Shown here: one piece after another, positions 45,798 to 64,000 of the stretch | Layout of the letters: each line of letters opens with the position of its first letter | Numbering within the stretch: position 1 is the first letter of the stretch | DNA from: an uncultured Oscillospiraceae bacterium | GTDB taxonomy: Bacteria > Bacillota > Clostridia > Oscillospirales > Oscillospiraceae | Length of the DNA: 64,000 bases | Reading direction: 5' to 3' | Assembly: GCA_947624065.1 (NCBI GenBank) | Contig: CANQIO010000004.1 | Location: 1-64,000, forward strand | The notes under the pieces: model-generated | Database searches by the model: none | Seen by the model: the letters and a program-made list of their open reading frames with translations, nothing else | What the model was told of the DNA's origin: nothing | Position numbers and translations under genes: made by a program

Positions 45798-47912
45798 ATG
45801 AGCGGGAAACGATCCCTGGGCGTGGGCGTGATCGGCGCCGGCGCCATCAGCGGCGTCTATCTGGAGAACATGGTGCGGCGCTTCCCGCAGCTGGACGTGA
45901 TCTGCGTGGCGGCGGAGCACCTTGAAAACGCCCAAAAAAGGGCGGCGCAGTTCGGCCTGGAGGCGTGCTCTGTGGAGCAGATGCTCGCCGACGGGCGTGT
46001 TGAGATGGCAGTGATCCTCACGCCGGTGGGGACCCACTATGGGCTCATCCGGCGGGCGCTTTTGGCGGGAAAGCATGTCTACACGGAAAAGACCGTGACC
46101 GACGAGCCGGACAAAGCGCGGGAGCTGCTGGCCCTGGCGGAGGAGCGGGGGCTGTATCTGGGCGCCGCGCCGGACACCTTCCTGGGCGCCGCCTGGCAGA
46201 CGGCCCGCGCCGCGCTCGACAGCGGCGCCATCGGCACGGTCCGGTCCTTCGCCATCTCCGCCAACCGGGACCTCCGGGGGCTTTTGAGCATGTTCTCCTT
46301 CCTGCGCCAGCCGGGGGCGGGCATACTGTATGATTACGGAGTGTATTACCTCACCGCCCTGGTGAGCCTGCTGGGGCCGGTGGCCCGGGTGGGCGGCATC
46401 GCGGAGCGGCCGTGCCCGGCGCATAAAAACGTGCTCCCTGAGAGCCCCGCGTTCGGCCAGCCCATCCAAAACCCCAATGAGAGCCGCGTCTCCGCCGTGC
46501 TGCAGCTGAGAAGCGGCGTCAGCGGCACGCTGCACATCGACGGGGACAGCGTCCATGCCGACCAGGCGTTTTTCGCCGTGTACGGCTCGGGGGGCATCCT
46601 GTACCTGACCGATCCCAACCAGTTCGGCGGCACGGTGCGGCTGCTGCCCAACAGCGCCGACTGGGGGCATCCCGCCGCGCCGTCGGAGCTGTGGAATTTC
46701 TCCGCCTACGGGGACAACGCCCGGGGCCTGGGCCCGGCGGAGATGGCGGACGCCATCCTGGCCGGACGGAAAAACCGGGCCAACAAGGAGATGGCCTGCC
46801 ATGTGCTGGACGTGCTCAGCGCCATCCTCCAAGGCGGCGAGCGGGGATGCTTCACGGACATCGCCTCCGCCTGTGACCGGCCCGCGCCCATGGAGCCCCA
46901 GAGCGCCCATATCCGGAACATCGGCCACCTGTCCTTCCAGACGCGGGACATGGACGCCATGACGCGCTTTTACGGAGACCTGCTGGGCATGAAGCGGCTG
47001 TTCACCATCACCGTGGGGGACTTCGCCCAAAACCTGCGGGAGCGGTACGGCGGCCAGACCCCGGCGGGGGACGCGGCCTATCTGCGGTCCATGGGGGACG
47101 ATCCCGGCCGGCCCTGGATCACCTATATGAAGCTGGCGGACGGGCAGTTTTTGGAGCTGTTCCACGATATGAACGGCAGCGGCCGGACCGTCGACAGGCG
47201 GGAGAGCTATGGCTATGCCGGCGCGGCCTTTGAGACGGAGGACGTATCCGCGCTCTTTGACCGGCTGGCCGGGGCGGGCGTGCCCATCCTGGAGGGGCTC
47301 CATGAGGCCGCGGACGGCGCTCTTGGATTCGCTGTGCTGGACCCGGAGGGCAACGAGGTGCGCTTTATCCAGTGCGCCGGGGCGGGGCGTCTCCCGGAGG
47401 CGGACCCGGACCATGAGGCGTGCTCCTGGGTGCGGTATACCGCCCGGGCGGCGTTCCAGGTGCGCGACGCGGTCAATATGGAGCTTTTCTACTGCCGGGG
47501 CCTGGGGCTGCGAAAGGTCCTGACGCTGACCTATGCTGACCTTGTCCGGTCGATGCGCCGGGCCGGCGGCGGGCAGGAGGAGGACCTGCGCCGGCTGGAG
47601 GCCATGGGGGAGCGGCCGTGGATCGACTACATCCGGGTGGCGCCCCATCAGCTCTTGGAGCTGGTGCACACCGACGGCCGGGCGCTCCGGGAGGAGCGGG
47701 ACCTGGGAGGGACCTACGGCTATCAGCATCTTTGTTTGGAGACCGCCGACATCGAGGCGGCCTACGCGGCGGCGCTCGCCAACGGCCTGCGGCCGGACAC
47801 GCCCGTCAGCAAGGGCGCGGATGGGGCCCTGCAGTTCTGGCTGACGGACCCGGACGGCAACCGCCTGGAGCTGATGGAATACGCCCCCGGCGCGAGGCAG
47901 ACGGCACTGTGA
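45798..47912 (+). CDS. Gfo/Idh/MocA dehydrogenase fused to two glyoxalase (VOC)-type domains
   Basis: The 704-residue product has a Rossmann NAD(P) domain with GVIGAGAISGVY (residues 9-20) and HVYTEKTVTDEP (EKP-like motif), then the dehydrogenase C-terminal domain to about residue 350. Two VOC domains follow (about 372-535 and 545-700), each with the pattern HLSFQTRDMDAMTRFYGDLLG or its relative and ending in DPEGNEVRF or DPDGNRLEL. Sugar dehydrogenases of this family oxidise a hydroxyl or act in epimerization; VOC domains bind metals in isomerases or lyases. The joint substrate is unknown. Preceded by GAAGGAGA; it lies behind a GC hairpin at about 45709-45737. Confidence 0.9.
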   Translation: MSGKRSLGVGVIGAGAISGVYLENMVRRFPQLDVICVAAEHLENAQKRAAQFGLEACSVEQMLADGRVEMAVILTPVGTHYGLIRRALLAGKHVYTEKTVTDEPDKARELLALAEERGLYLGAAPDTFLGAAWQTARAALDSGAIGTVRSFAISANRDLRGLLSMFSFLRQPGAGILYDYGVYYLTALVSLLGPVARVGGIAERPCPAHKNVLPESPAFGQPIQNPNESRVSAVLQLRSGVSGTLHIDGDSVHADQAFFAVYGSGGILYLTDPNQFGGTVRLLPNSADWGHPAAPSELWNFSAYGDNARGLGPAEMADAILAGRKNRANKEMACHVLDVLSAILQGGERGCFTDIASACDRPAPMEPQSAHIRNIGHLSFQTRDMDAMTRFYGDLLGMKRLFTITVGDFAQNLRERYGGQTPAGDAAYLRSMGDDPGRPWITYMKLADGQFLELFHDMNGSGRTVDRRESYGYAGAAFETEDVSALFDRLAGAGVPILEGLHEAADGALGFAVLDPEGNEVRFIQCAGAGRLPEADPDHEACSWVRYTARAAFQVRDAVNMELFYCRGLGLRKVLTLTYADLVRSMRRAGGGQEEDLRRLEAMGERPWIDYIRVAPHQLLELVHTDGRALREERDLGGTYGYQHLCLETADIEAAYAAALANGLRPDTPVSKGADGALQFWLTDPDGNRLELMEYAPGARQTAL

Positions 47913-51358: not shown

Positions 51359-51593
51359 CCAAAAGATGGAATTTAGCTTATGTTTACCTAATTAAAAACG
51401 GGAAACCGTCAAAGTGCAAAAAAAAAAAAGCAAAATTTTATTTATTCGTGCATATTTACAAATTTTGTTTTAGGGTGTTAAATTGTAATTAACAAATTGC
51501 GATTTGACGCCCTTTTCTTTTAGCTAAATTAGCTAAATAAGCCTAATTGGGCGGGCGGCGCACCGGCGCGCGCCCGGTATGGGGGAGAAGACC
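51359..51593. other. AT-rich control region before the mannanase operon
   Basis: The 235 bases are sharply AT-richer than their surroundings and include a run of about 11 A (near 51419-51430), a -35-like TTGACG (51504-51509) and the repeated palindrome TTAGCTAA. No gene is seen. Confidence 0.55.
51518..51538. promoter_or_regulatory. Tandem TTAGCTAA palindrome, candidate operator
   Basis: TTAGCTAA occurs twice in 18 bases, sharing an overall dyad, between a -35-like box and the GH26 gene. A dimeric regulator binding there would block or aid the promoter. No regulator gene lies beside it in the window. Confidence 0.5.
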
Positions 51594-53066
51594 TTGATCC
51601 TGAGAAGATCTTTGTGCATCATTTTGGCTGCGGCCGCGCTGCTCTGCGCGGGCGGTACGGCTGGCGCGGCCCAGGAGAGCGAGGCGCAGGAAGTGGTGGG
51701 CACCTATCTGCCCGGCGAGGGCGAATGTACGGGCAACGTGAAGGCTAAAAAGGACGGGTCCGTCACCGGCTTCAAGGAGGACGGCGACGCCTGCACGGTC
51801 ACGATCGACGTCCCGGAGACGGGCTTTTTCGACCTGGTGTTCATGGTGAAGGCCCAGGGCGGCTATAAGGAGAACTATGTCTGGGCGGACGGGCAGCAGG
51901 CGGGGACGCTGGTGGCCCAGACCGGCAAAGAGGAGGACGCCGCCGTGCGCCGGGTGTATCTGGAAAAGGGCGCCCATGAGATCACGGTGAGCAAATACTG
52001 GGGCTATATCGACTGGCTGCGGCTGACCGTGCTGGTCTCGGAGCCCTTTGACGAGAGCATATTTGACGTGTCCCCGCGCCTGGTGGACCCGGAGGCCACG
52101 GACAACGCCCGGCGGCTGTTCAGCTATCTGTGCGATGAGTACGGCAAGAGCATCCTCTCCGGCCAATACTGCGACACGGGGGCCAACGGCTGGGAGAACA
52201 TGAAGATCGCGGAGATCAACGGCGGCAGATATCCCGCCATCCTGGGCCTGGATATGGGCTACTACTCCCAGACCGGCGTGGACCACGGCGCGTCGGTCAG
52301 CACCACGGAGCAGGCGATCGCCTATTGGGAAAAGGGCGGCATCGTCACGCTGTGCTGGCACTGGCTGGCCCCGGAGAAGTACATCTCCGGCACCTGGTAC
52401 AGCGCCTTCCGGCCGGAGGAGTGCGACATGGACCTGACGGCCATCATGAACGGCAAGGACGAGGAGGGGCTGGCCCTGCTGAAAAAGGACATCGGCAACA
52501 TCGCCGTCCAGCTGCAGGCCATGCAGGAGGCGGGCGTGCCCATCCTGTGGCGGCCCCTGCACGAGGCCTCCGGCGGCTGGTTCTGGTGGGGCGCGGAAGG
52601 GCCGGATACATATAAGAAGCTCTACATCATGCTCTACGACATGCTGACCAACGAGTACGGCCTGCACAACCTGATCTGGGTCTGGAACGGCCAGGACAAG
52701 GACTGGTATCCCGGGGACGAGTATGTGGACATCATCGGCATGGACATCTATGCCGGCGAGCATGTCTACACCTCCCAGATCGACCAGTTTTTGCTCAACC
52801 ACAGCTGTTCGCCCGGCAGCAAGATGGTGGTGCTCAGTGAGAACGGCACCATGATCGACCCGGACCTGGCGGTGCGGGACCGGGCCATGTGGGGCTTTTT
52901 CTGCACCTGGAGCGGGGAGTTCGTGCTCAACGACGGGGTGCGCAAGACCTATTCCGAGCGGTATACCGACGCGCAGATGCTCACCAAGGTCTATAACAGC
53001 GACATCGTCATCACCCGGGACGAGCTGCCGGATCTGCTGACCTATCCCATAAAGGACGGCGGCTGA
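51594..53066 (+). CDS. Secreted GH26 beta-mannanase with N-terminal carbohydrate-binding-like domain
   Basis: The 490-residue product has a signal peptide (about residues 1-27), a beta-sandwich of the CBM35/CBM6 sort (about 35-150; GFFDLVFMVKAQGGYKENYV, YLEKGAHEITVSKY), and a GH26 domain. The acid/base Glu is in WRPLHEASGGWFWWG (about residue 324) and the nucleophile Glu in VLSENGT (about 417). GH26 enzymes cut beta-1,4-mannan. TTG 51594 is the preferred start, because GGGGGAG lies seven bases before it whereas ATG 51579 has no ribosome site. Confidence 0.9.
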   Translation: MILRRSLCIILAAAALLCAGGTAGAAQESEAQEVVGTYLPGEGECTGNVKAKKDGSVTGFKEDGDACTVTIDVPETGFFDLVFMVKAQGGYKENYVWADGQQAGTLVAQTGKEEDAAVRRVYLEKGAHEITVSKYWGYIDWLRLTVLVSEPFDESIFDVSPRLVDPEATDNARRLFSYLCDEYGKSILSGQYCDTGANGWENMKIAEINGGRYPAILGLDMGYYSQTGVDHGASVSTTEQAIAYWEKGGIVTLCWHWLAPEKYISGTWYSAFRPEECDMDLTAIMNGKDEEGLALLKKDIGNIAVQLQAMQEAGVPILWRPLHEASGGWFWWGAEGPDTYKKLYIMLYDMLTNEYGLHNLIWVWNGQDKDWYPGDEYVDIIGMDIYAGEHVYTSQIDQFLLNHSCSPGSKMVVLSENGTMIDPDLAVRDRAMWGFFCTWSGEFVLNDGVRKTYSERYTDAQMLTKVYNSDIVITRDELPDLLTYPIKDGG

Positions 53067-53704
53067 TGCTGAGAAAATGGCTGGACGTGGAGGGGCCGGT
53101 GATCGGCTTTCTGGACAAGGCGGGGGAGCTCATCGCGCTCAGCGCGCTATGGCTTCTCGGCTGTCTGCCGGTGGTGACGGTATCGACCTCCACGGCTGCG
53201 CTCTATTACGCGGTGATGAAAACGGTCCGCCGGAGCCGGGGCCGCGCCGCGGGGGAGTTCTGGCGCAGCTACCGGGCCAACCTGGGCCGGGGCATAGCGG
53301 CGGGACTGCCGCTGCTGGCGCTGGGGGCGCTGCTGGCACTGGACGCGGCCATCCTGCTGCGGCAGGAGCGGGCGCTGCACACCGGGGCGGTGATCGTGCT
53401 GGCGGTGATATTGGCGGCTTTGGCGGTGTATGTGGGGCCGGTGCTGTCCCGGTTCTCCGTGAAGGTGACCCAGGTCTGGCGGCTGGCGTTTTTGATGGCG
53501 GTGCGGTTTTGGTACTGGACCGCCGCGATCCTCATCCTGGCGGGCCTGGCGGCGGCTCTGCAGTTTTACGTGCTGCCGGTGCCGACAGTGCTCATCCTGC
53601 CGGGGGCGGGATGCCTGGCGGCGACCTTCCCGATAGAGAAGGCACTGCGCGCGTATATGCCGCCCAAAGAAGAGGGCGACGATGCATGGTATTACGAAAG
53701 TTGA
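53066..53704 (+). CDS. DUF624 (YesL-like) membrane protein
   Basis: The 212-residue product has five or six hydrophobic segments and the DUF624 start (LDKAGELIALSALWLLGCLPVVT, then STAALYYAVMKTVR). YesL-like proteins accompany sugar ABC importers and secreted glycan enzymes in Firmicutes; their job is not known. The start shares a base with the GH26 stop, so it is cotranscribed. Confidence 0.88.
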   Translation: MLRKWLDVEGPVIGFLDKAGELIALSALWLLGCLPVVTVSTSTAALYYAVMKTVRRSRGRAAGEFWRSYRANLGRGIAAGLPLLALGALLALDAAILLRQERALHTGAVIVLAVILAALAVYVGPVLSRFSVKVTQVWRLAFLMAVRFWYWTAAILILAGLAAALQFYVLPVPTVLILPGAGCLAATFPIEKALRAYMPPKEEGDDAWYYES

Positions 53705-53723
53705 TCATAAAAGGGGCGTGACG

Positions 53724-56700
53724 ATGACGAGAAGGAAGAAAACAGCGGGACGGATGGCGGGCGTCCTGGCGGTGGTGCTGGCGCTGACGGCGGCACTGCC
53801 GGCAGGCATGCCAGCTCTGGCGGCCACGGACCAGTCCCGCAGCGAGTATGAGGAGCTGGTCAGCGAGTATGCCGTGTCCGCCGACAAGCTGGACTACAAG
53901 GACTATCTCCTTCAGCAGGCCGGGCAGGACCGGCCGGACGCGGAGATCGGGATCGACGCCGGCGATTATGTCCGCTATGAGGAGGCCGATTCCGCCGCTC
54001 AGCCGGAGATCCGTTCCAACTTTGCGGGCATGGCGGGCGAGAGCGTCCTCACGGCGGAGAACTCGCTCATCGAGTTCACCTTCGATGTGGAGCGGGAGGG
54101 GTATTACGACCTCTCGCTGCTCTATTATCCGGTGGCGGGAAAGAACTCTGCCATCCAGCGCAGCATCTTTTTGGACGGCGAGCTGCCCTATGAAGAACTG
54201 TCCCTGGTGGAGTTCCAGCGGGTGTGGACCTGCGAGGTCACGGATGCCTATACCGACGCCAACGGCGTGGAGGTGCTGTCCTGGGCCAAGGACAACCAGG
54301 GCAACGACCTTAAGCCCTCCATGGCGGAGGCCCCCGAGTGGGTGGAGAGCTATGTCTACGACAGCCAGGGCTATGTGACCACGCCTCTGGCGCTGTACCT
54401 CACCGCCGGGGAGCACACCCTCACCCTGACGGGACTGCGGGAGCCCATGCTGCTGCGGAAGGTGGAGCTGTCCAACCGGGACACCGTGCTGCCATACGCG
54501 GATGTGAAGGCGTCCGACGACGCCAAGGGCTATGCCGACACCTCCGGCCAGATGATCCGCATCGAGGCGGAGAACACGGCCAAGACATCCTCTCCCATGC
54601 TCTATGCCCTGCAGGACCAGAGCTCGCCCGCCGTGTATCCTGCCAGCCCCAAGGCGCTGCTCAACAACACCATCGGCGGCAACGGCTGGAAGCTGAACGG
54701 CCAGTGGATGGAGTGGGATTTCACCGTGGAGCAGAGCGGATACTACAACATCGCCCTGTTCGACAAGCAGAACTTCGTCAAGGGCATCTATGTGTCCCGG
54801 CGCATCTCCATCGACGGCGAGGTCCCCTTCCAGGAGATGGAGGATTACGGCTTTACATACGGCTCCGGCTGGCGCCAGGATGTGCTCAGCGACAGCGAGG
54901 GCCAGCCCTATTCGTTCTATCTGGAGGCCGGGGAGCACACCCTGCGTATGGAGGTGGTCCTGGGCAAGTTCGCGGACATCATCAGCTCTGTCCAGGACTG
55001 CGTGACCCAGCTCAACGCCATCTACCGCAGCGTCATCCGCATCACAGGCGTCTCCCCGGACCGGTACAGGGACTATGAGATCGAGCAGTCCCTGCCGGAG
55101 CTGGAGGGAGAGCTGATCGCGGTCAAGGACGAGCTGGACGACGCCATCGCCCGCCTGCGGGCCCTGATCGGCGAGAACAGCGACAAGGAGAGCGTGCTCA
55201 TCACCATGAGCGACCAGCTGGGCGAGCTCATCTACGACCAGGAGCGGTTCACCGAGGTCATCAGCGCCTACAAGGTGAACATGCGCGCCACGGCAACCTG
55301 GATCACCCAGGTCATCGACCAGCCTTTGCAGCTGGACCGCATCTATGTCTACTCCCCCGACACCGCGGTGAAGGCGGAGAACACCGGCTTCTTCCCCTCC
55401 CTGTGGCATGAGCTGAAGCGGCTCTTCTATTCCTTCGTCATCGACTACAACCAGATCGGCGATGTGAGCAGCGGCGATGACGCCACCGCCATCACCCTCT
55501 GGATCGGCACCGGCCGCGACCAGGCCAACATCATCAAGGCCCTCATCGACTCCACGTTCACCCCCGAGTCCAACATCAACGTGAACGTGCAGCTGGTGGA
55601 TATGAACACGCTCCTGCGGGCCACGCTGGCCGGCGAGGGGCCGGACGTGGCCATCCAAGTGCCCAATACCAACGGCATCGCGGGCGCGGTGCTGACCACC
55701 GGCAACGACACCGCCGTCAACTACGGCATCCGAAACGCCGTACTGAATCTGCGGCAGTTCGATGACTATGACGAGGTGGCGGCCCGGTTCTCTCCCAGCG
55801 CCATGGTGCAGCTGGAGTTCTACGGCAAAACCTACGGCCTGCCGGAGACCCAGACCTTCCCCATGCTGTTCTACCGCAAGGACATCCTGGCGGAGCTGGG
55901 CATGGAGGTGCCCCAGACCTGGGACGACGTGAAGGTGGCCATGACGGTGCTGGCCAAGAACCAGATGGAGTTCGGCATGCTCCCCACGGAGCAGATCTTC
56001 GCCATGCTCCTGTACCAGAACGGCGGGGCCTACTATAACGAGGAGGGCAGCGTGTCCGCCCTGGATTCGGAAGAAGCCGTCAACACCTTCAAACAGTACT
56101 GCGAGTATTACACCGATTACAAACTGGACAAAGAGACCAGCGTGGAGCAGCGCTTCCGTACAGGCGAGTGCCCCATCATCATCAGCGACTATACGCTGTA
56201 CAACAACCTGCAGGTCTCCGCACCGGATATCGACGGGCTGTGGGGCATCGCCCCGGTGCCTGGCACGCGGATGGCGGACGGGTCCATCGACCGGTCCGTG
56301 GGCTCCACGGGCCTGACCAGCCTGATCATGTCGGCCACCGAGGAACCGGACGCCTGCTGGGAATTTTTGAAGTGGTGGACCTCCGCTTCCACCCAGACCA
56401 GCTTCGGCTATGAGATGGAGAGCCTGCAGGGCGAGGCGGGCCGTGTGCCCACCGCCAACCTGGAGGCCTTCGGGAACATCGCCTGGAAGGCGTCGGACAT
56501 GGAGGCGCTGCTGGAGCAGTACCAGTGGGTGCGTGGCATCCCCCAGGTGCCGGGCGGATATTACTCCTGGCGTAACGTGAACAACGCCTTCTATACCGTG
56601 ACCACCGACACGGACTTTGCTTCGCCCCGTGAGGAGCTGATGGACAAGGTGGTGCTCATCAACACGGAGCTGCAATACAAGTGGGAAGAGTTCGGACTGA

Positions 56701-56732
56701 TCAGCAAGCAGACGGGAGGTGAGGAGCCGTGA
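53724..56732 (+). CDS. Very large ABC solute-binding protein with N-terminal carbohydrate-binding-like regions
   Basis: The 1002-residue product is more than twice the usual length. A signal peptide (about residues 1-34) is followed by two beta-sandwich-like regions (about 65-240 and 275-420), each with a REGYYDLSLLYYP or QSGYYNIALFDKQ strand and an AGEHTL motif. A charged helical linker (about 430-560) leads to a family 1 solute-binding domain (about 585-960; ITLWIGTGRDQANIIKALID, LAGEGPDVAIQVPN, AMLLYQNGGAYYNEEG). No lipobox. ATG 53724 has AAAGGGG upstream; it follows the DUF624 gene after 19 bases. The permeases 56729-58556 are its partners. Confidence 0.9.
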   Translation: MTRRKKTAGRMAGVLAVVLALTAALPAGMPALAATDQSRSEYEELVSEYAVSADKLDYKDYLLQQAGQDRPDAEIGIDAGDYVRYEEADSAAQPEIRSNFAGMAGESVLTAENSLIEFTFDVEREGYYDLSLLYYPVAGKNSAIQRSIFLDGELPYEELSLVEFQRVWTCEVTDAYTDANGVEVLSWAKDNQGNDLKPSMAEAPEWVESYVYDSQGYVTTPLALYLTAGEHTLTLTGLREPMLLRKVELSNRDTVLPYADVKASDDAKGYADTSGQMIRIEAENTAKTSSPMLYALQDQSSPAVYPASPKALLNNTIGGNGWKLNGQWMEWDFTVEQSGYYNIALFDKQNFVKGIYVSRRISIDGEVPFQEMEDYGFTYGSGWRQDVLSDSEGQPYSFYLEAGEHTLRMEVVLGKFADIISSVQDCVTQLNAIYRSVIRITGVSPDRYRDYEIEQSLPELEGELIAVKDELDDAIARLRALIGENSDKESVLITMSDQLGELIYDQERFTEVISAYKVNMRATATWITQVIDQPLQLDRIYVYSPDTAVKAENTGFFPSLWHELKRLFYSFVIDYNQIGDVSSGDDATAITLWIGTGRDQANIIKALIDSTFTPESNINVNVQLVDMNTLLRATLAGEGPDVAIQVPNTNGIAGAVLTTGNDTAVNYGIRNAVLNLRQFDDYDEVAARFSPSAMVQLEFYGKTYGLPETQTFPMLFYRKDILAELGMEVPQTWDDVKVAMTVLAKNQMEFGMLPTEQIFAMLLYQNGGAYYNEEGSVSALDSEEAVNTFKQYCEYYTDYKLDKETSVEQRFRTGECPIIISDYTLYNNLQVSAPDIDGLWGIAPVPGTRMADGSIDRSVGSTGLTSLIMSATEEPDACWEFLKWWTSASTQTSFGYEMESLQGEAGRVPTANLEAFGNIAWKASDMEALLEQYQWVRGIPQVPGGYYSWRNVNNAFYTVTTDTDFASPREELMDKVVLINTELQYKWEEFGLISKQTGGEEP

Positions 56733-57676
56733 ATGAAGTGAAACAGCTCGGGAGGGTCAAACCCATGCAGGAGCCGCGCACCCTGGAGAAGAAGAGGCGG
56801 CTGCTGCCCAAAAACACCGCCATCTACCTGATGCTGGCGCCGTATTTCATCCTGTTCACCCTGTTCACCGTTTTGCCGGTGCTGGCCTCCATCGTGCTGA
56901 GCTTTACGGACTTCAACATGCTGGAGTGGCCTCACTTCGTGGGCTGGACCAACTACATCCGGCTGCTGGTCAACGACGACCTGTTCATCGTGGCGCTGAA
57001 AAACACCCTGCTGTTCGCGGTGATCACAGGCCCCATCAGCTATCTGATGTGCCTGCTGTTCGCGTGGGTCATCAACGAGTTCAAGGGCAAGCTGCGGGCG
57101 TTCCTGACGCTGATCTTCTATGCCCCGTCCATCTGCGGCAACGCCTACATGATCTGGCAGATCATCCTCACCGGCGACCGCTATGGCTACCTGAACGGCC
57201 TGCTGCTGAAATGGGACATCATCAACGAGGCCATCATCTGGATGAAGACGGAGAAGTACGTGCTGCCGCTGCTGATCGTGGTGCAGCTGTGGCTGAGCTT
57301 GGGCACGGGCTTTTTGTCCTTCATCGCCGGCCTGCAGACCGTGGACAAGAGCCTGTACGAGGCGGGCGCGCTGGACGGCATCAAGAACCGCTGGCAGGAG
57401 CTTTGGTTCATCACCCTGCCGGCCATGAAGCCCCAGCTGATGTTCGGCGCGGTCATGCAGATCACCCAGTCCTTCGCCATCGCGGACATCTCCATCCAAC
57501 TGGCCGGCAACCCGTCGGTGAACTACGCCGGCTCCACCGTGGTCACGCACCTGCTGGATTACGGCACGGTACGATTTGAGATGGGTTACGCCTCCGCCAT
57601 CGCCACGATCCTGTTCTTGCTGATGGTGGGCACCAACAAGCTGGTGCAGCGGCTGCTCAGAAGGGTAGGCGAGTGA
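56729..57676 (+). CDS. Sugar ABC permease, first subunit
   Basis: The 315-residue product has six membrane segments and the EAA loop YEAGALDGIKNRWQELWFITLP (about residues 210-230). GTG 56729 overlaps the stop of the binding protein (GTGA), so synthesis is coupled. It resembles LplB/UgpA-type permeases. Confidence 0.93.
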   Translation: MNEVKQLGRVKPMQEPRTLEKKRRLLPKNTAIYLMLAPYFILFTLFTVLPVLASIVLSFTDFNMLEWPHFVGWTNYIRLLVNDDLFIVALKNTLLFAVITGPISYLMCLLFAWVINEFKGKLRAFLTLIFYAPSICGNAYMIWQIILTGDRYGYLNGLLLKWDIINEAIIWMKTEKYVLPLLIVVQLWLSLGTGFLSFIAGLQTVDKSLYEAGALDGIKNRWQELWFITLPAMKPQLMFGAVMQITQSFAIADISIQLAGNPSVNYAGSTVVTHLLDYGTVRFEMGYASAIATILFLLMVGTNKLVQRLLRRVGE

Positions 57677-57677
57677 G

Positions 57678-58556
57678 ATGAAAAAACTTCGCCACCTTTT
57701 CCGCCACAGGAAAAACCGCAAGCTCAACCGTTCGCCTGCGGGCAACGCGCTGCTGTTTTTCCTCATGGGCATTTTCGGCGTGCTGATGGCCGTGCCTCTG
57801 GTGATGATCGTCAACAACGCCCTCAAACCGCTGGACGAGCTGTTCCAGTATCCGCCCAAGCTGTTCGTGCGCAACCCGACTCTGAACAACTTCGTGGACC
57901 TGTTCGTGGCCATGAACTCCTCTTGGGTGCCGTTTTCCCGGTACGTGCTCAACACGGTCATCATCACCGCGGGCGGCACGGTGGGGCACGTGATCCTGGC
58001 CTCCATGGCGGCGTATCCCCTGTCCAAGCACGAGTTCAAGGGCAAGAACCTGCTGTTCAGCATGGTGGTGCTGTCCATGATGTTCTCCTGGACGGTCACC
58101 CAGATCCCCAACTACATGATCATCTCCTGGCTGCACATCAACAACACCTACTGGGCCCTTATCCTGCCCGCCTGCTCCTTCGGCATGGGCCTTTACCTCA
58201 TGAAGCAGTTCATGGACCAGCTCCCCAACGCGCTCATGGAGTCCGCCCGGCTGGACGGCGCCGGGGAGTTTCGGGTGTTCTTCCGCATCGTGATGCCCAA
58301 CGTCAAGCCCGCGTGGCTGACGCTGGCCATCTTCCAGTTCCAGCAGATGTGGGGCAACACGGGCTATATGTTCCTGCGGGACGAGGAGCTCAAGCCCCTG
58401 CAGTACTCCCTGCAGCAGATCGCCGCGGGCGGTACGGCACGGGCCGGCGCCAGCGCGGCGGTGACGTTCATCATCGCGGCGATCCCCATCATCTTCTTCC
58501 TCATCTGCCAGAGCAACGTGCTGGAGACCATGACCACCTCCGGCATGAAGGAATAA
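57678..58556 (+). CDS. Sugar ABC permease, second subunit
   Basis: The 292-residue product has six membrane segments and an EAA loop with MESARLDGAGEFRVFFRIV (about residues 190-208). It begins one base after the preceding stop and pairs with it to make the channel. There is no ATPase gene nearby. Confidence 0.93.
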   Translation: MKKLRHLFRHRKNRKLNRSPAGNALLFFLMGIFGVLMAVPLVMIVNNALKPLDELFQYPPKLFVRNPTLNNFVDLFVAMNSSWVPFSRYVLNTVIITAGGTVGHVILASMAAYPLSKHEFKGKNLLFSMVVLSMMFSWTVTQIPNYMIISWLHINNTYWALILPACSFGMGLYLMKQFMDQLPNALMESARLDGAGEFRVFFRIVMPNVKPAWLTLAIFQFQQMWGNTGYMFLRDEELKPLQYSLQQIAAGGTARAGASAAVTFIIAAIPIIFFLICQSNVLETMTTSGMKE

Positions 58557-58569
58557 GGAGGGCGGAAGG

Positions 58570-60051
58570 ATGAAATACATGAAAAAGCTCTCCTCGCTGC
58601 TGCTGGCGGCGCTGCTGCTGGCCTCGTGCCTGCCGGCGGCGGCCCTGGCGGACGACGTGCCCTACGACACCTATAACTATGATTACTGGGAGAACGTCGT
58701 CCGGATCCCGGCGCCCTATGTGCCCGACGGGTCGATCTCCGGCGTGAGCCTGGGCTGCGGGGCCTTCGCCAGCCCCCAGGATATCTGCGTGGCGCCGGAC
58801 GGCGACCTCTATATCGCCGACACCGGCCACAACCGGATTGTGGTGGTGGACGGGACCAGCCATCAGGCGAAAAAGATCATCGACTCCTTTGAAAATGAGG
58901 GCGAGACCGACACCTTCAACGCGCCCACCGGCGTGTGCGTGTCGGAGAACGAGCAGCTCTACATCGCTGACCGGGAGAACCAGCGCATCGTGGTGATGGA
59001 GCTGGACGGGACCCTGGACCGCATCGTCCGGGACCCCCAGTCGGACGTGCTGCCCGCCGGGTTCGTGTTCAAGCCCCTGAAGATCTCGGTGGACTATGCC
59101 GACCGTATCTACTGCATCGCCCAGAACATGTTCCAGGGCATCCTGGTATTCGAGACCGATGGCCAGTTCTCCGGCTTCTTCGGCACCATCAACGTCCAGC
59201 TGTCCCTGTGGGAGAAGTTCTGGAAAAAGGTGGCCACCAAGGAAGAGCGGCAGAACCAGACCCTGTACATCGCCACGGAATTCACCGGCATGGACATCGA
59301 CGAGAGCGGCTTCGTCTACGCCACCAACATCGACGAGACCGGCAAGCAGGGCGTGCGCCGGCTGAACCCCCGGGGCGAGGACGTCATCAAGAAGGGCCGC
59401 AACGAGGACGTGGGCGGCGATCTTTGGACGGGAGGCTCCGGCGCCTATGCCGGCCCCAGCCAGATCACCGACGTGGTCTACCGGGGCGAGGGCATCTACT
59501 CTCTGCTGGACCGGAAGCGGGGCCGCATCTTCACCTATGACCACGAGGGCAACCTTTTGTACATCTTCGGCGGACTGGGCACCCAGGAGGGCACCTTCAC
59601 CACCCCCGTCGCCATCGAGCAGTGGAACGGGGAGCTGCTGGTGCTGGACGCCACGAGGGCCCAGATAAGCCGCTTCGCGCCCACGGAATACGGCGGCCTC
59701 ATCAACCAGGCGGTGGCTCTGCGCTACGACGGAGACGAGGCGCTGGCTGTGCCGCTCTGGGAGCGGGTGCTGGAGCTGGACGAGAACAACGAGCTGGCCT
59801 GCTCCGGCATCGGCAAGGCGTATCTGTCCGCCGGGGACAACGAGTCGGCCATGAAATACCTGAAGCTGGGCATGAACCGGGATTACTATTCCGTGGCCTT
59901 TAAGCGTTACCGCAGCGAGATCCTCCGGGCCCACCTGGGCCAGGCGCTCACCGCCTTGGGCGTGGTGCTCGTGGTGGTGCTGGTGGTGACAAGGCTCCGC
60001 AAGCGGCGCAAGGCAAAGAAAGCGTCTGAGGAAGGAGGCCTGGTCGGATGA
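58570..60051 (+). CDS. NHL beta-propeller and TPR membrane protein of the importer cluster
   Basis: The 493-residue product has a signal sequence (about residues 1-27), NHL-type repeats (about 65-370; ASPQDICVAPDGDLYIADTGHNRIVVVD, APTGVCVSENEQLYIADRENQRIVVME and others), a TPR-like helical pair (about 385-440; EALAVPLWERVLELDENNELA) and a membrane helix near 455-475 with a basic tail. The signal region contains LASC, a possible lipobox, although AALADD is an equal cleavage site. NHL domains bind ligands or proteins, so it could be a surface scaffold for the importer. Confidence 0.8.
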   Translation: MKYMKKLSSLLLAALLLASCLPAAALADDVPYDTYNYDYWENVVRIPAPYVPDGSISGVSLGCGAFASPQDICVAPDGDLYIADTGHNRIVVVDGTSHQAKKIIDSFENEGETDTFNAPTGVCVSENEQLYIADRENQRIVVMELDGTLDRIVRDPQSDVLPAGFVFKPLKISVDYADRIYCIAQNMFQGILVFETDGQFSGFFGTINVQLSLWEKFWKKVATKEERQNQTLYIATEFTGMDIDESGFVYATNIDETGKQGVRRLNPRGEDVIKKGRNEDVGGDLWTGGSGAYAGPSQITDVVYRGEGIYSLLDRKRGRIFTYDHEGNLLYIFGGLGTQEGTFTTPVAIEQWNGELLVLDATRAQISRFAPTEYGGLINQAVALRYDGDEALAVPLWERVLELDENNELACSGIGKAYLSAGDNESAMKYLKLGMNRDYYSVAFKRYRSEILRAHLGQALTALGVVLVVVLVVTRLRKRRKAKKASEEGGLVG

Positions 60052-60680
60052 AAGCGGCGTTCGGAAAAGATAAGTGGCAGTATCTGCTCTATACCATGGG
60101 CCATCCCGTGGACGGGTTCTACTGGATCCGCCACCAGGACCGGGGCAGCGTGCCGCTGGCGGTGCTGCTGGTGATCTGCTTCTCTCTGTGCTTCTCCATC
60201 AACCGCATCAGCGCGAATTTCATCGTCAACGACGTGGAGCCGGCCACGGTGGACAGCCTGCAGGAGCTGTCGGGCGTGCTGCTCTTATACGCGCTGCTGT
60301 GTGTGGGCAACTGGTCCATCACATGCCTGATGAACGGCAGCGGCCGGATGAAGGACATCGCCATCGCCATCGGCTACGGCTGCGCGCCGATGATCCCGGC
60401 GCTGCTGCTGGCCACGGTGTTCAGCCAGTTCATCACCGTGGACGAGGGGGCGTTCTATTACCTCATCATCGGCCTGGGCGTGGCATACGCGGCGGTGGTC
60501 ATGCTGCTGGGCATCCGGCAGGTGCATGACTACACCATGGGCAAGACCCTCATCACCCTGCTGCTGACCTTCGTGGCGATCCTGTGCATCCTCTTCGTCA
60601 GCCTGCTGCTCATCGATCTGATCGGACAGGTGATCAACTTCTTCCGGTCGATCTATACCGAGCTCGTGTTCAGAATGTGA
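60048..60680 (+). CDS. YIP1-family membrane protein
   Basis: The 210-residue product has about five hydrophobic segments and the Yip1 pattern: KDKWQYLLYTMGHPVDGFYWIR at the start, KDIAIAIGYGCAPMIPALLL in the middle. Bacterial YIP1 proteins are of unknown function. The ATG overlaps the end of the NHL gene, so the two are coupled. Confidence 0.82.
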   Translation: MKAAFGKDKWQYLLYTMGHPVDGFYWIRHQDRGSVPLAVLLVICFSLCFSINRISANFIVNDVEPATVDSLQELSGVLLLYALLCVGNWSITCLMNGSGRMKDIAIAIGYGCAPMIPALLLATVFSQFITVDEGAFYYLIIGLGVAYAAVVMLLGIRQVHDYTMGKTLITLLLTFVAILCILFVSLLLIDLIGQVINFFRSIYTELVFRM

Positions 60681-60693
60681 GGAGGGGCGCGGG

Positions 60694-63282
60694 ATGAAAA
60701 AGGAAAGAAAACACATCTCCCTGGGAAGAAAGCTGGTATATGCCCTGGTGACGGTGGCCGTGGTGGGCGGACTGAGCTACCTGGCCTATTACCTGGTCCA
60801 TTACACCTTTTTCCGGGATTACCAGAGCTACCTCACCTCCTATGCCTATGAAGAGGGCGGCGAGCTGGAGCTGCGGGGGGAGAAGCTGGAGGAAAACAAG
60901 GCTTACGAGCTGGTCTGCGAGAGCGACGAGCTGGCCATGTACCTGAACGAGGACACCACGGATGTGGCGATCCTGGACAAGCGCAGCGGTGCCGTCACCT
61001 ACGCCGTCCCGCCCGCGGTGGACGACGACCCGCTGGCCAACAACGTGAACAAGGATTACCTGCGCTCGCATATCATCCTCAACTACTATAACGCCTCCCG
61101 GACGACCGGTATCTATGACTCCTATTCCATGTCCGTGGAAAAGGGCCAGTTTGAATTCCAGTCCCTGGAGAACGGCGTGCGCGTGATCTACGAGATGGGC
61201 GATTTCTCCAACTCGGCGGGCATCGTGCCCCAGTATATGTCGGAGGAGAAGTACGAGGAGATCGTCGGGCAGCTTTCCGAGGACGACGCGGCCGCCTTTG
61301 GGCGGTATTACACCACCACCTCCGACGTGGACGGGATGCGCCAGATCCTCAAGACCGCCCGCAACAACCGCATCGCCCTGGAGCGCATCCAGGCCATGCT
61401 GGATACCGTGGGCTTCACCGAAGAGGACTACGTGGAGCAGATGGCCATGGCGGGGACCCAGGTCTCCGTGCCCATCTCCTTCAAAGTGTCGCTGGAGTAC
61501 CGGCTGGAGGGCGACCATGTGGACGTGTCCGTGCCCACCTGCGCGCTGGAGGAGAACGGCGGCGCGTCCGTCTACCGCATCCAGGTGCTCTACGGCTTCG
61601 GTGCGGCCGGGACCGACGAGACGGGCTACATCGTGGTGCCCAACGGGGACGGCTCCCTGATCTACTTCAACAACGGCAAGAGCACGGCGGGCGTCTATTC
61701 CCAGTTCGTCTACGGCATCGATATGCTGGCGGCGGACTACACCGTGCTGGAGACCTCCAACAACGCCCGGATGGGGCTGTTCGGCCTGTGCAAGGAGAAC
61801 GGGACCATCCTGGCCACCATCGAGGACGGCGTCTCTCTGGCGTCCATCAGCGCCGGCGTCTCCGGACGGGTGAACAGCTACAACAACGCCTATGTGACCT
61901 TTGTGGTCCGGGGCAGCGAGACGCTGGAGATGTTCGGCAGCACCGGCAACGAGGCCGCGCTGCCCATCGTGGAGCCGGCGCCCTATGACCGGAACCTGAC
62001 GGTGCGCTACACCTTCCTGGACGAGGACCACCAGGGCTATTCCGGCATGGCCAACTATTACCGGGACCGGCTCATCGCCGAGGGCGTGCTCACGGAGAAA
62101 ACGGAAAATGAGCCGCTGAAGTTCTATTATGACGTGCTCTCCGGCGTGAAGATGCGGGAGTTCTTCCTGGGCAAGCAGTATATGGGCCTGACGGCCATGA
62201 CCACCTTCGACGAGGCCGGCCAGATCTCCGACGCGCTGGCCCGGTCGGGCATCGAAAACCAGGTCATGAACCTGCAGGGCTGGTTCAACGGCGGGTACTA
62301 CCACGACGTGGCCGACCGCATCCGGGTGCCCCGAAAGCTGGGCGGCAGGAGCGGTCTGGAGGCCCTGGGCGACCAGGTCGCCAACAACGGCGGCACCCTT
62401 TACACCGACGTGGCCTTCCAGCAGGTGACGGAGATCAGCAAGCGCTACAACTACAAGGCGGAGATCGCCAAGTATTACGGCAGCGGCTATGTGGCCGACT
62501 TCGGCATCGTCAATCCAGCCACGCTGCGCCAGACCTCCAGCCTGGGCTATTCGGAGACCATGTACGACCTCATCTCGCCCAAGTTCCTGGTCCGGTATGT
62601 GCGCGAATTCGCCGACCGCTTCGCCAAGCTGGACGTGGACGGCGTCTCCCTGCGGGATCTGGGCTCCGATGTCCATTCGGACAAGAAGCGCAGCGAGATG
62701 ATCGACCGGGAGCAAGCGCTGGACGTGGTGAAGGGCCAGCTGGAGCTGCTGGACGGCACAGAGAAGGACCTGATGGTCAACCAGGCAAACGATTACGCCT
62801 GGGCCGTGGCGGACGACATCACGGACCTGCCTCTGAGCGACAACGAATATGTGATCGTGGATGAGGACATCCCCCTGTATGAGATGATCGTCCACGGCTG
62901 CATCGACTACTGCGGCACCGCCTATAACCTCACCGACGTGGCCGACGACCGGGATCAGGTGCTGACCATGATCGAGTACGGCGCGGCGCCTCACTTCCTG
63001 TTCACTTGGAAGGAGACTTCGGAGATGAAGTACTCCGGCGTGAACCGGTTCTATACCACCTGCTTCGACACCTGGAAGGACAAGGCCGCGGAGGTGTACG
63101 CAGAGCTGGACGGCGTGCTCAGCCAGGTCACCGGCCAGCGGATGGTCTCCCACGAGATCCTGCAGAGCGGCGTGCGCAAAACGGTCTACAGCGGCGGCAC
63201 CGTCATCTATGTCAACTACAACACCCAGCCGGTACGCGTGGACGGCGTCAGCGTCCCGGCCAAGGGATACACGGTACGGTAA
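60694..63282 (+). CDS. DUF5696 membrane-anchored extracellular protein, possible glycosidase
   Basis: The 862-residue product has one N-terminal membrane helix (about residues 13-34) and a large outside part. Residues about 60-460 are beta-rich. Residues about 480-820 look like an (alpha/beta)-barrel: NQVMNLQGWFNGGY, GTLYTDVAFQQV, DVDGVSLRDLGSDVHSDK (650-663) and IVHGCIDYCGTAYNLTDV. This pattern recalls glycoside hydrolases of the GH36/GH101 kind, but the family is uncharacterised. AGGAGGGG precedes the ATG, 14 bases after the YIP1 gene. Confidence 0.85.
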   Translation: MKKERKHISLGRKLVYALVTVAVVGGLSYLAYYLVHYTFFRDYQSYLTSYAYEEGGELELRGEKLEENKAYELVCESDELAMYLNEDTTDVAILDKRSGAVTYAVPPAVDDDPLANNVNKDYLRSHIILNYYNASRTTGIYDSYSMSVEKGQFEFQSLENGVRVIYEMGDFSNSAGIVPQYMSEEKYEEIVGQLSEDDAAAFGRYYTTTSDVDGMRQILKTARNNRIALERIQAMLDTVGFTEEDYVEQMAMAGTQVSVPISFKVSLEYRLEGDHVDVSVPTCALEENGGASVYRIQVLYGFGAAGTDETGYIVVPNGDGSLIYFNNGKSTAGVYSQFVYGIDMLAADYTVLETSNNARMGLFGLCKENGTILATIEDGVSLASISAGVSGRVNSYNNAYVTFVVRGSETLEMFGSTGNEAALPIVEPAPYDRNLTVRYTFLDEDHQGYSGMANYYRDRLIAEGVLTEKTENEPLKFYYDVLSGVKMREFFLGKQYMGLTAMTTFDEAGQISDALARSGIENQVMNLQGWFNGGYYHDVADRIRVPRKLGGRSGLEALGDQVANNGGTLYTDVAFQQVTEISKRYNYKAEIAKYYGSGYVADFGIVNPATLRQTSSLGYSETMYDLISPKFLVRYVREFADRFAKLDVDGVSLRDLGSDVHSDKKRSEMIDREQALDVVKGQLELLDGTEKDLMVNQANDYAWAVADDITDLPLSDNEYVIVDEDIPLYEMIVHGCIDYCGTAYNLTDVADDRDQVLTMIEYGAAPHFLFTWKETSEMKYSGVNRFYTTCFDTWKDKAAEVYAELDGVLSQVTGQRMVSHEILQSGVRKTVYSGGTVIYVNYNTQPVRVDGVSVPAKGYTVR

Positions 63283-63294
63283 GGGGGCGGAGGA

Positions 63295-64000
63295 ATGAAA
63301 AAGCATCGACTGAGTTTGGAATCGAAGCGCAAGGTCAACGGCTACCTGTTCATCCTCCCCTGGCTGGTGGGCTTCATCGTGTTCTATGTGCGGAGCCTGT
63401 TCATGACGGTGGAGTTCTCCCTGTCGGACCTGCAGATGGACGTGGTCAACGGCGGCTATAACCTGACCTGGGTGGGGCTGAAGAACTACATCTACGCCTT
63501 TACCGCCCACGGCAGCTTCAAGCAGATCCTCACCAGCTCCGTGCTGAACATGGTGGTGGACATCCCGCTGATCATCTTCTTCAGCCTGTTCATGGCCCTG
63601 CTGCTGAACCGGAAGTTCAAGGGCAGGACCCTGGTCCGGGCCATCTTCTTCCTGCCGGTGATCCTGAACGCCGAGGCCATCCTGGACGCCATCGAGTCGG
63701 CCACCGCCATGGTGGCCACGGGCGTGAGCGCCTCCAGCCAGGAGGTGGCCGCGGAGAGCGCGGGCATCGGGATGGCGTATTACATCGACCTGTTCGGCAG
63801 CCTGATGCTGCCCCGGACGGTCCTGGATTACATCGTGGGCGCCACAGACCGGATCACCAGCATCATCTCCGCCTCCGGCGTGCAGATCGTCATCTTCATC
63901 GCCGCGCTCCAGTCCATCCCCAGCAACCTCTACGAGGTGGCCAAGATGGAGGGCGCCACGGCCTATGAGACCTTCTGGAAGGTGACGCTGCCCATGATCA
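63295..64000 (+). CDS. Sugar ABC permease (3' end outside the window)
   Basis: The first 235 residues are present. ATG 63295 follows GGCGGAGG. Hydrophobic segments include NGYLFILPWLVGFIVFYV and the later VQIVIFIAALQSI, then the EAA-loop start YEVAKMEGATAYETFWKVTLP near the end. It is the third permease of this cluster, so a second importer, probably with its own binding protein, begins here. An additional loop of about 50 residues between membrane segments is notable. Confidence 0.9.
   Translation, partial: MKKHRLSLESKRKVNGYLFILPWLVGFIVFYVRSLFMTVEFSLSDLQMDVVNGGYNLTWVGLKNYIYAFTAHGSFKQILTSSVLNMVVDIPLIIFFSLFMALLLNRKFKGRTLVRAIFFLPVILNAEAILDAIESATAMVATGVSASSQEVAAESAGIGMAYYIDLFGSLMLPRTVLDYIVGATDRITSIISASGVQIVIFIAALQSIPSNLYEVAKMEGATAYETFWKVTLPMI

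Follow-up and report, generated by a model that had tools for sequence, protein, structure and literature searches.

Introduction

A textbook sugar ABC importer combines a binding protein with two permeases and an ATPase pair, to which the maltose importer of Corynebacterium adds MusI, an accessory protein of the DUF624 type. The β-mannan locus of Roseburia intestinalis (RiGH26, RiMnBP/RiMPP1/RiMPP2) shares with the cassette reported here a GH26 enzyme beside an ABC importer and a cytoplasmic GH36, but has a single importer, with one binding protein and a single pair of permeases, as against two importers here (PMC6385246). The terms 'DUF' and 'hypothetical' are absent from the main text of that paper, and the main text of a 2026 paper on mannan use by Bacillota contains none of hypothetical, YIP1, NHL, DUF, solute-binding or permease. 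Open-licence papers yielded no description of DUF5696 or of combinations of the cassette products such as NHL, Yip1 and binding protein, and a search for MusI there likewise returned nothing. The known element of our locus is a CUT1 importer, and its putative accessory subassembly is apparently untested.

The window, the 64,000-nucleotide stretch analysed here, belongs to an assembly of 1.92 Mb that is 75% complete. Among named relatives, the nearest are MAGs of uncultured Oscillospiraceae with isolate names starting with Lapin, and the best DUF5696 identity is 97%.

Results and discussion

Organization of the cassette

The first-pass annotation had described seven tightly packed genes and the start of an eighth beside a secreted mannanase, and all were found on the plus strand where it had placed them. 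The adjoining gene (51579..53066) encodes a GH26 protein with CBM35 (Pfam GH26 228.6 bits, CBM_35 42.6 bits) and a signal-peptide-like start, probably a secreted β-mannanase; GH36, without a signal-peptide-like start, and GH5 were also detected upstream with Pfam. The cassette begins with a MusI-like DUF624 membrane protein (53066..53704), followed by a 1002-residue binding protein (SBPL; 53724..56732), its partner permeases MalF1 (56729..57676) and MalG1 (57678..58556), an NHL propeller and TPR protein (58570..60051), a multi-spanning membrane protein of the YIP1 family (60048..60680; Pfam Yip1 50.8 bits, with hydrophobic segments) and a DUF5696 protein (60694..63282) with an N-terminal membrane helix ahead of the putative GH129-fold part. 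Consecutive genes overlap or are separated by -4 to +19 bases, and a ribosome-binding-site-like sequence precedes several of the starts. Pfam cut-offs were exceeded for DUF624, SBP_bac_1, two BPD_transp_1, NHL, Yip1 and DUF5696. The TPR part of the NHL protein, also annotated earlier, stayed below the Pfam cut-off when this one protein was searched, but the family profile (A5) matched designed TPR structures over residues 383-434.

The second permease set read from the start of the eighth gene could be followed beyond the window on the same contig (C4). That gene, MalF2 (63295..64000 in the window), is a complete MalF-type permease gene that stops at C4:64206 and is followed by MalG2 (C4:64215-65219), a protein with three CBM65 stretches (C4:65321-67081; L002:2322-4082), a second binding protein, SBP2 (C4:67275-68660; L002:4276-5661), all three typed with Pfam, and a second DUF624-like protein, DUF624b (C4:68745-69434). 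Against the NCBIfam model MusI_fam, which has a cut-off of 160 bits, DUF624 and DUF624b scored 76.9 and 75.4 bits, respectively. Both Corynebacterium MusI and the cassette DUF624 are small extra membrane proteins beside a sugar ABC importer, but the latter scores under the family cut-off and occurs in only 22 of 40 loci of the window-like set A (below) whose two flanks each reach 8.8 kb or more.

Distribution and gene order among Bacillota

Three profile searches, each over the same 398 genomes of one phylum (Bacillota, going by the named relatives), retrieved the same 41 genomes for full-length DUF5696 (E ≤ 5.7e-125, with the next match at 2.2e-6, the score gap at which the carrier count was drawn), NHL/TPR (E ≤ 1.6e-98) and YIP1 (E ≤ 2.9e-42, followed by weak relatives in 15 genomes, from 4.5e-13). 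At E ≤ 1e-20, NHL/TPR matches beyond the 41 were confined to two genomes, G223 with a partial match (8.1e-58) and G335 with a weak one (7.4e-21). The carriers bear 23 genus and 19 family labels, and an extra trio beside one permease pair recurs, within the sample of this phylum, across 19 families, with several copies in some genomes. SBPL matches numbered 11 in G077 (some of them fragments), six in G037 and four each in G058, G124 and G150, and each of these five genomes had at least seven YIP1 matches; for DUF5696, no more than three candidates per listed genome were scored, and copy counts are lower bounds. The Pfam cut-off for DUF5696 was exceeded in 43 of the 398 genomes, and 52 had matches at E 0.001. 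Of 19 weak DUF5696 places ten were retrieved, and six of these matched our own profile and were typed, three as GH13, two as DUF6259 (one in G275) and one as GH129 (G297); G275 and G297 are the two extra genomes over the Pfam cut-off. Weak matches also appeared in two control genomes, Thermotoga maritima and Lactococcus lactis.

Gene order was compared in two sets of loci. Set A comprises the best 80 of 436 relatives and was chosen as the most window-like, and its counts are therefore not independent; set B comprises 40 of the 63 other full-length DUF5696 places, from 33 genomes, hand-picked to cover groups. One DUF5696 protein is identical between the sets (L122 in B, L078 in A). Counting only set-A loci with enough contig on the side in question, the gene immediately upstream of DUF5696 is YIP1 in 75/75 and the second one upstream is NHL in 68/69 (the exception, L110, has an extra frame between), and a MalF-type permease lies directly downstream in 79/79 and a MalG-type one second downstream in 72/74. 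SBPL was present in 58/58, SBP2 in 58/60 and CBM65 in 45/60. In set B, where only the searched families were counted and the score thresholds were ours, NHL and YIP1 precede DUF5696 in 40/40 loci, MalF2 follows it in 40/40 and MalG2 comes next in 38/40. SBPL-MalF1-MalG1 was contiguous in 31 of the 32 set-B loci that hold SBPL, upstream in 25 and downstream in seven. Eight of the 40 had no SBPL in the scanned stretch, four of them (L134, L137, L149, L150) being cut by contig ends, and SBPL is encoded in all ten genomes searched for it, including the seven behind these eight loci. SBPL-MalF1-MalG1 thus forms a separate unit, a separable module.

The first of the refuting outcomes proposed beforehand, that the three genes would rarely co-occur with such importers, was thus not what we obtained, and the co-occurrence and gene-order counts rule out a chance neighbourhood. 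The relatives and the annotated plasmid records also agree with the occurrence in Paenibacillaceae and Clostridia given in the first-pass annotation: plasmid pNP243 of Butyrivibrio fibrisolvens has the same gene order, flanked by a GH43 gene and by genes of a two-component system, and a plasmid of Paenibacillus cellulosilyticus has it with NHL and YIP1 fused.

The NHL/TPR and YIP1 proteins

The NHL/TPR protein has hydrophobic segments at residues 6-30 and 451-478 and a basic tail. NHL and YIP1 form one open frame in 22 of the 40 set-B loci, one of which (L151) is cut by a contig end, and in no locus of set A when both matches were required to exceed 50 bits. In all three fused frames typed, two from set B and that of P. 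cellulosilyticus, both Pfam NHL and Yip1 were found, and at least five changes are required to place the fused state on a quick tree of 56 DUF5696 rows. The suggested pairing of NHL and YIP1 is thus backed by repeated gene fusion. A PDB search with YIP1 gave no match. Four loci (L064, L067, L073 and L106) have NHL frames of 911-921 residues compared with the usual ~500; in L067 and L106, the two that were typed, the NHL part is separated from the TPR part by additional residues.

Two permease pairs and a large binding protein

The permeases fall into two lineages according to their neighbours. In quick trees with one outgroup row each, from which the other permeases of these genomes were left out, the DUF5696-adjacent (54) and SBPL-adjacent (47) MalF sequences lie on the two sides of a branch with support 99, as do the corresponding MalG sequences (53 and 46; support 100), and the two permease pairs consequently look like old, distinct partners. 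MalF- and MalG-type permeases together with a sugar-binding protein mark a CUT1-type importer, and two MalK-type ATPases with OB_MalK are encoded elsewhere in the genome. Queries with these two ATPases detected no MalK-like protein in the window or in the scanned contig stretch; matches at E ≤ 1e-15 were obtained in only four of 121 loci (L095, L105, L113 and L143), and the ATPase was discarded as a conserved cassette member.

SBPL has a β-rich N-terminal part, a helical segment and a C-terminal sugar-binding-protein domain (about 586-991); SBP_bac_1 covers residues 617-905 of a 1016-residue frame, of which the likelier start at 53724 gives the 1002 residues. Compared with Lin1841 (5ysb), CbpB (7x0i) and T. 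maritima MalE3 (6dtr), it has ~585 extra N-terminal residues, for which matches were weak (GH115_C in 7/16 members, Golvesin_C in 5/16, CBM_35 in 1/16, and one coiled-coil match). By a crude pattern, a lipobox is missing from 56 of 61 SBPL proteins of set A plus the window and from 26 of 32 of set B. An argument on SBPL from this is weak since an ordinary binding protein of the same genome (36796-38067) also has none; neither do SBP2 and the CBM65 protein of this genome, which does contain lgt. The same crude pattern is present in 37/62 SBP2 and 23/54 CBM65 proteins of set A plus the window.

DUF5696 and its predicted GH129 fold

Modelling predicts for DUF5696 a GH129 fold across residues 73-862, with GH129, then GH101, GH36 and GH13 enzymes as the nearest folds, families that act on α-linkages. 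Sequence kinship agrees with the overall fold in placing the protein with GH129: profile A7 matched 5opq at E 1.8e-13 and 5wzn at E 4.6e-9, and hhalign gave a probability of 87.8% against two Bacillota GH129-like proteins. A survey for GH129 found it in one of 299 genomes and in two of nine in one family. Relative to NagBb (5wzn), ZgGH129/DagB (5opq) and the GH101 enzyme EngBF, DUF5696 has an N-terminal membrane helix, an identity of 16% to GH129 and catalytic acids that are not clearly conserved. D655 is Asp in 80/80 proteins of the window and 79 set-A loci but in only 19/40 of set B (99/120 overall), and D663 is kept in 116/120; neither aligns securely with the catalytic Asp (NagBb Asp435, ZgGH129 Asp486). 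The second catalytic acid is not conserved between NagBb and ZgGH129 (PMC5698469), and the ZgGH129 Glu517 motif falls by eye, in a mapping that is unsure at 16% identity, on the conserved Asn699. Glycan binding or trimming by DUF5696, as proposed in the first-pass annotation, is thus favoured by the predicted fold, but trimming is doubtful because the conserved acids could not be matched securely to the catalytic ones of GH129.

Proposed function and alternatives

That the three membrane proteins travel with two importers in many relatives suggests that all three contribute to the working of a machinery for uptake. Judged from sequence, the cassette could be an expanded CUT1-type ABC glycan importer with an accessory surface subassembly, a reading to which we give about half of our belief. 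MalF2-MalG2 would be the transport pore served by this dedicated subassembly, in which the NHL/TPR and YIP1 proteins may form a single membrane-anchored platform, a docking suggested by their fusion and adjacency, and DUF5696, a membrane-anchored protein of putative GH129 fold, may hold and perhaps trim oligosaccharides outside the membrane. SBPL-MalF1-MalG1 would be a second importer working alongside, and both would probably be powered by the same ATPase, whose gene lies elsewhere. A more elaborate version, which we regard as unlikely, is a hitherto undescribed glycan-uptake machine of Bacillota that unites both importers in one assembly on a shared outer platform, the NHL/TPR protein fused or bound to YIP1. 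In it, DUF5696 would be a GH129-fold receptor without catalytic activity, catching oligosaccharides and delivering them to either pore, and the whole would parallel, in Gram-positive bacteria, the SusCD system of Bacteroidota.

Several other readings fit part of these data. DUF5696 might be an active surface exo-α-glycosidase that removes side chains, such as the α-galactose of galactomannan, before import, with the importer otherwise unchanged. The α-acting families among its nearest folds, the invariant D655 of the window and set A and the nearly invariant D663 speak for such an enzyme, yet D655 is Asp in fewer than half of the set-B members, the Glu517 motif appears to meet an Asn, and the operon already has a GH36; we put this at roughly one chance in four. 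It is rather improbable that the NHL/TPR, YIP1 and DUF5696 proteins instead sense surface glycan and relay this by way of MalF2-MalG2 or of a two-component system nearby, with no role in uptake. The histidine kinase and response regulator beside the cassette of pNP243 would suit such a sensor, as would a regulator of the AraC type, carrying a GGDEF-like domain, near one set-B cassette, but the cassette proteins have no Pfam match to a kinase, receptor or DNA-binding family and a kept regulator is not obvious in the gene strings of the loci, in which other than regulator families were traced.

Conserved order could also stem from co-regulation alone, as operon genes often stay in order without complex formation, and the trio might help to assemble or recycle the membrane or the envelope glycans of the cell itself and simply be co-regulated with the importers. 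To our knowledge, neither YIP1 nor NHL families are transporter components in general, and the substrate-side neighbours vary widely, as this would have it; the contiguity of the trio with one permease lineage, and the finding of no strong trio-profile match outside the 41 genomes other than the partial NHL one, make it very improbable. If the expanded importer is the right reading, many Gram-positive polysaccharide users would carry importer parts for which we found no published test. The analysis also provides DUF5696 with a predicted fold and a genomic setting, and links the YIP1 and NHL genes to a partner.

Flanking genes and likely load

Among set-A loci with both flanks, GH26 was found in 32/40 and any of GH26, GH5 and GH36 in 38/40, as against GH26 in only 5/40 loci of set B. 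The neighbouring genes suggest that the load in the window's organism is probably oligosaccharides of β-mannan or glucomannan that the GH26 sets free. The flanks of set B contained 45 unassigned frames of at least 500 residues, of which 20 were typed: ten are glycosidases (GH30, GH35, GH3 twice, GH43 twice, GH42, GH2, GH31 and GHL6) and ten are lectin, esterase, peptidase, regulator, other or without match. In P. cellulosilyticus the cassette (L170) adjoins four flavin oxidoreductases of the LLM class, in place of glycosidases, and a UgpC ATPase, and its load may, as a guess, be sulfonated or another non-polysaccharide. The general tie to β-glycans initially put forward was rejected because the typed flanks differ, which implies a load that varies outside the window's clade.

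A promoter scan returned three sites against a mean of 3.4 in shuffles, and terminator-like sites numbered 20 against 8.6. Between GH36 and GH26, an AT-rich palindrome of 19 pairs followed by a T run (51472-51513) resembles a terminator, and similar sequence is present in L032, L034 and L038 (L036 and L037 were left out, their called start being different). Elsewhere in the window, 45798-47912 encodes a 704-residue protein in which a GFO/IDH/MocA oxidoreductase is joined to glyoxalase-fold stretches, an unusual-looking fusion.
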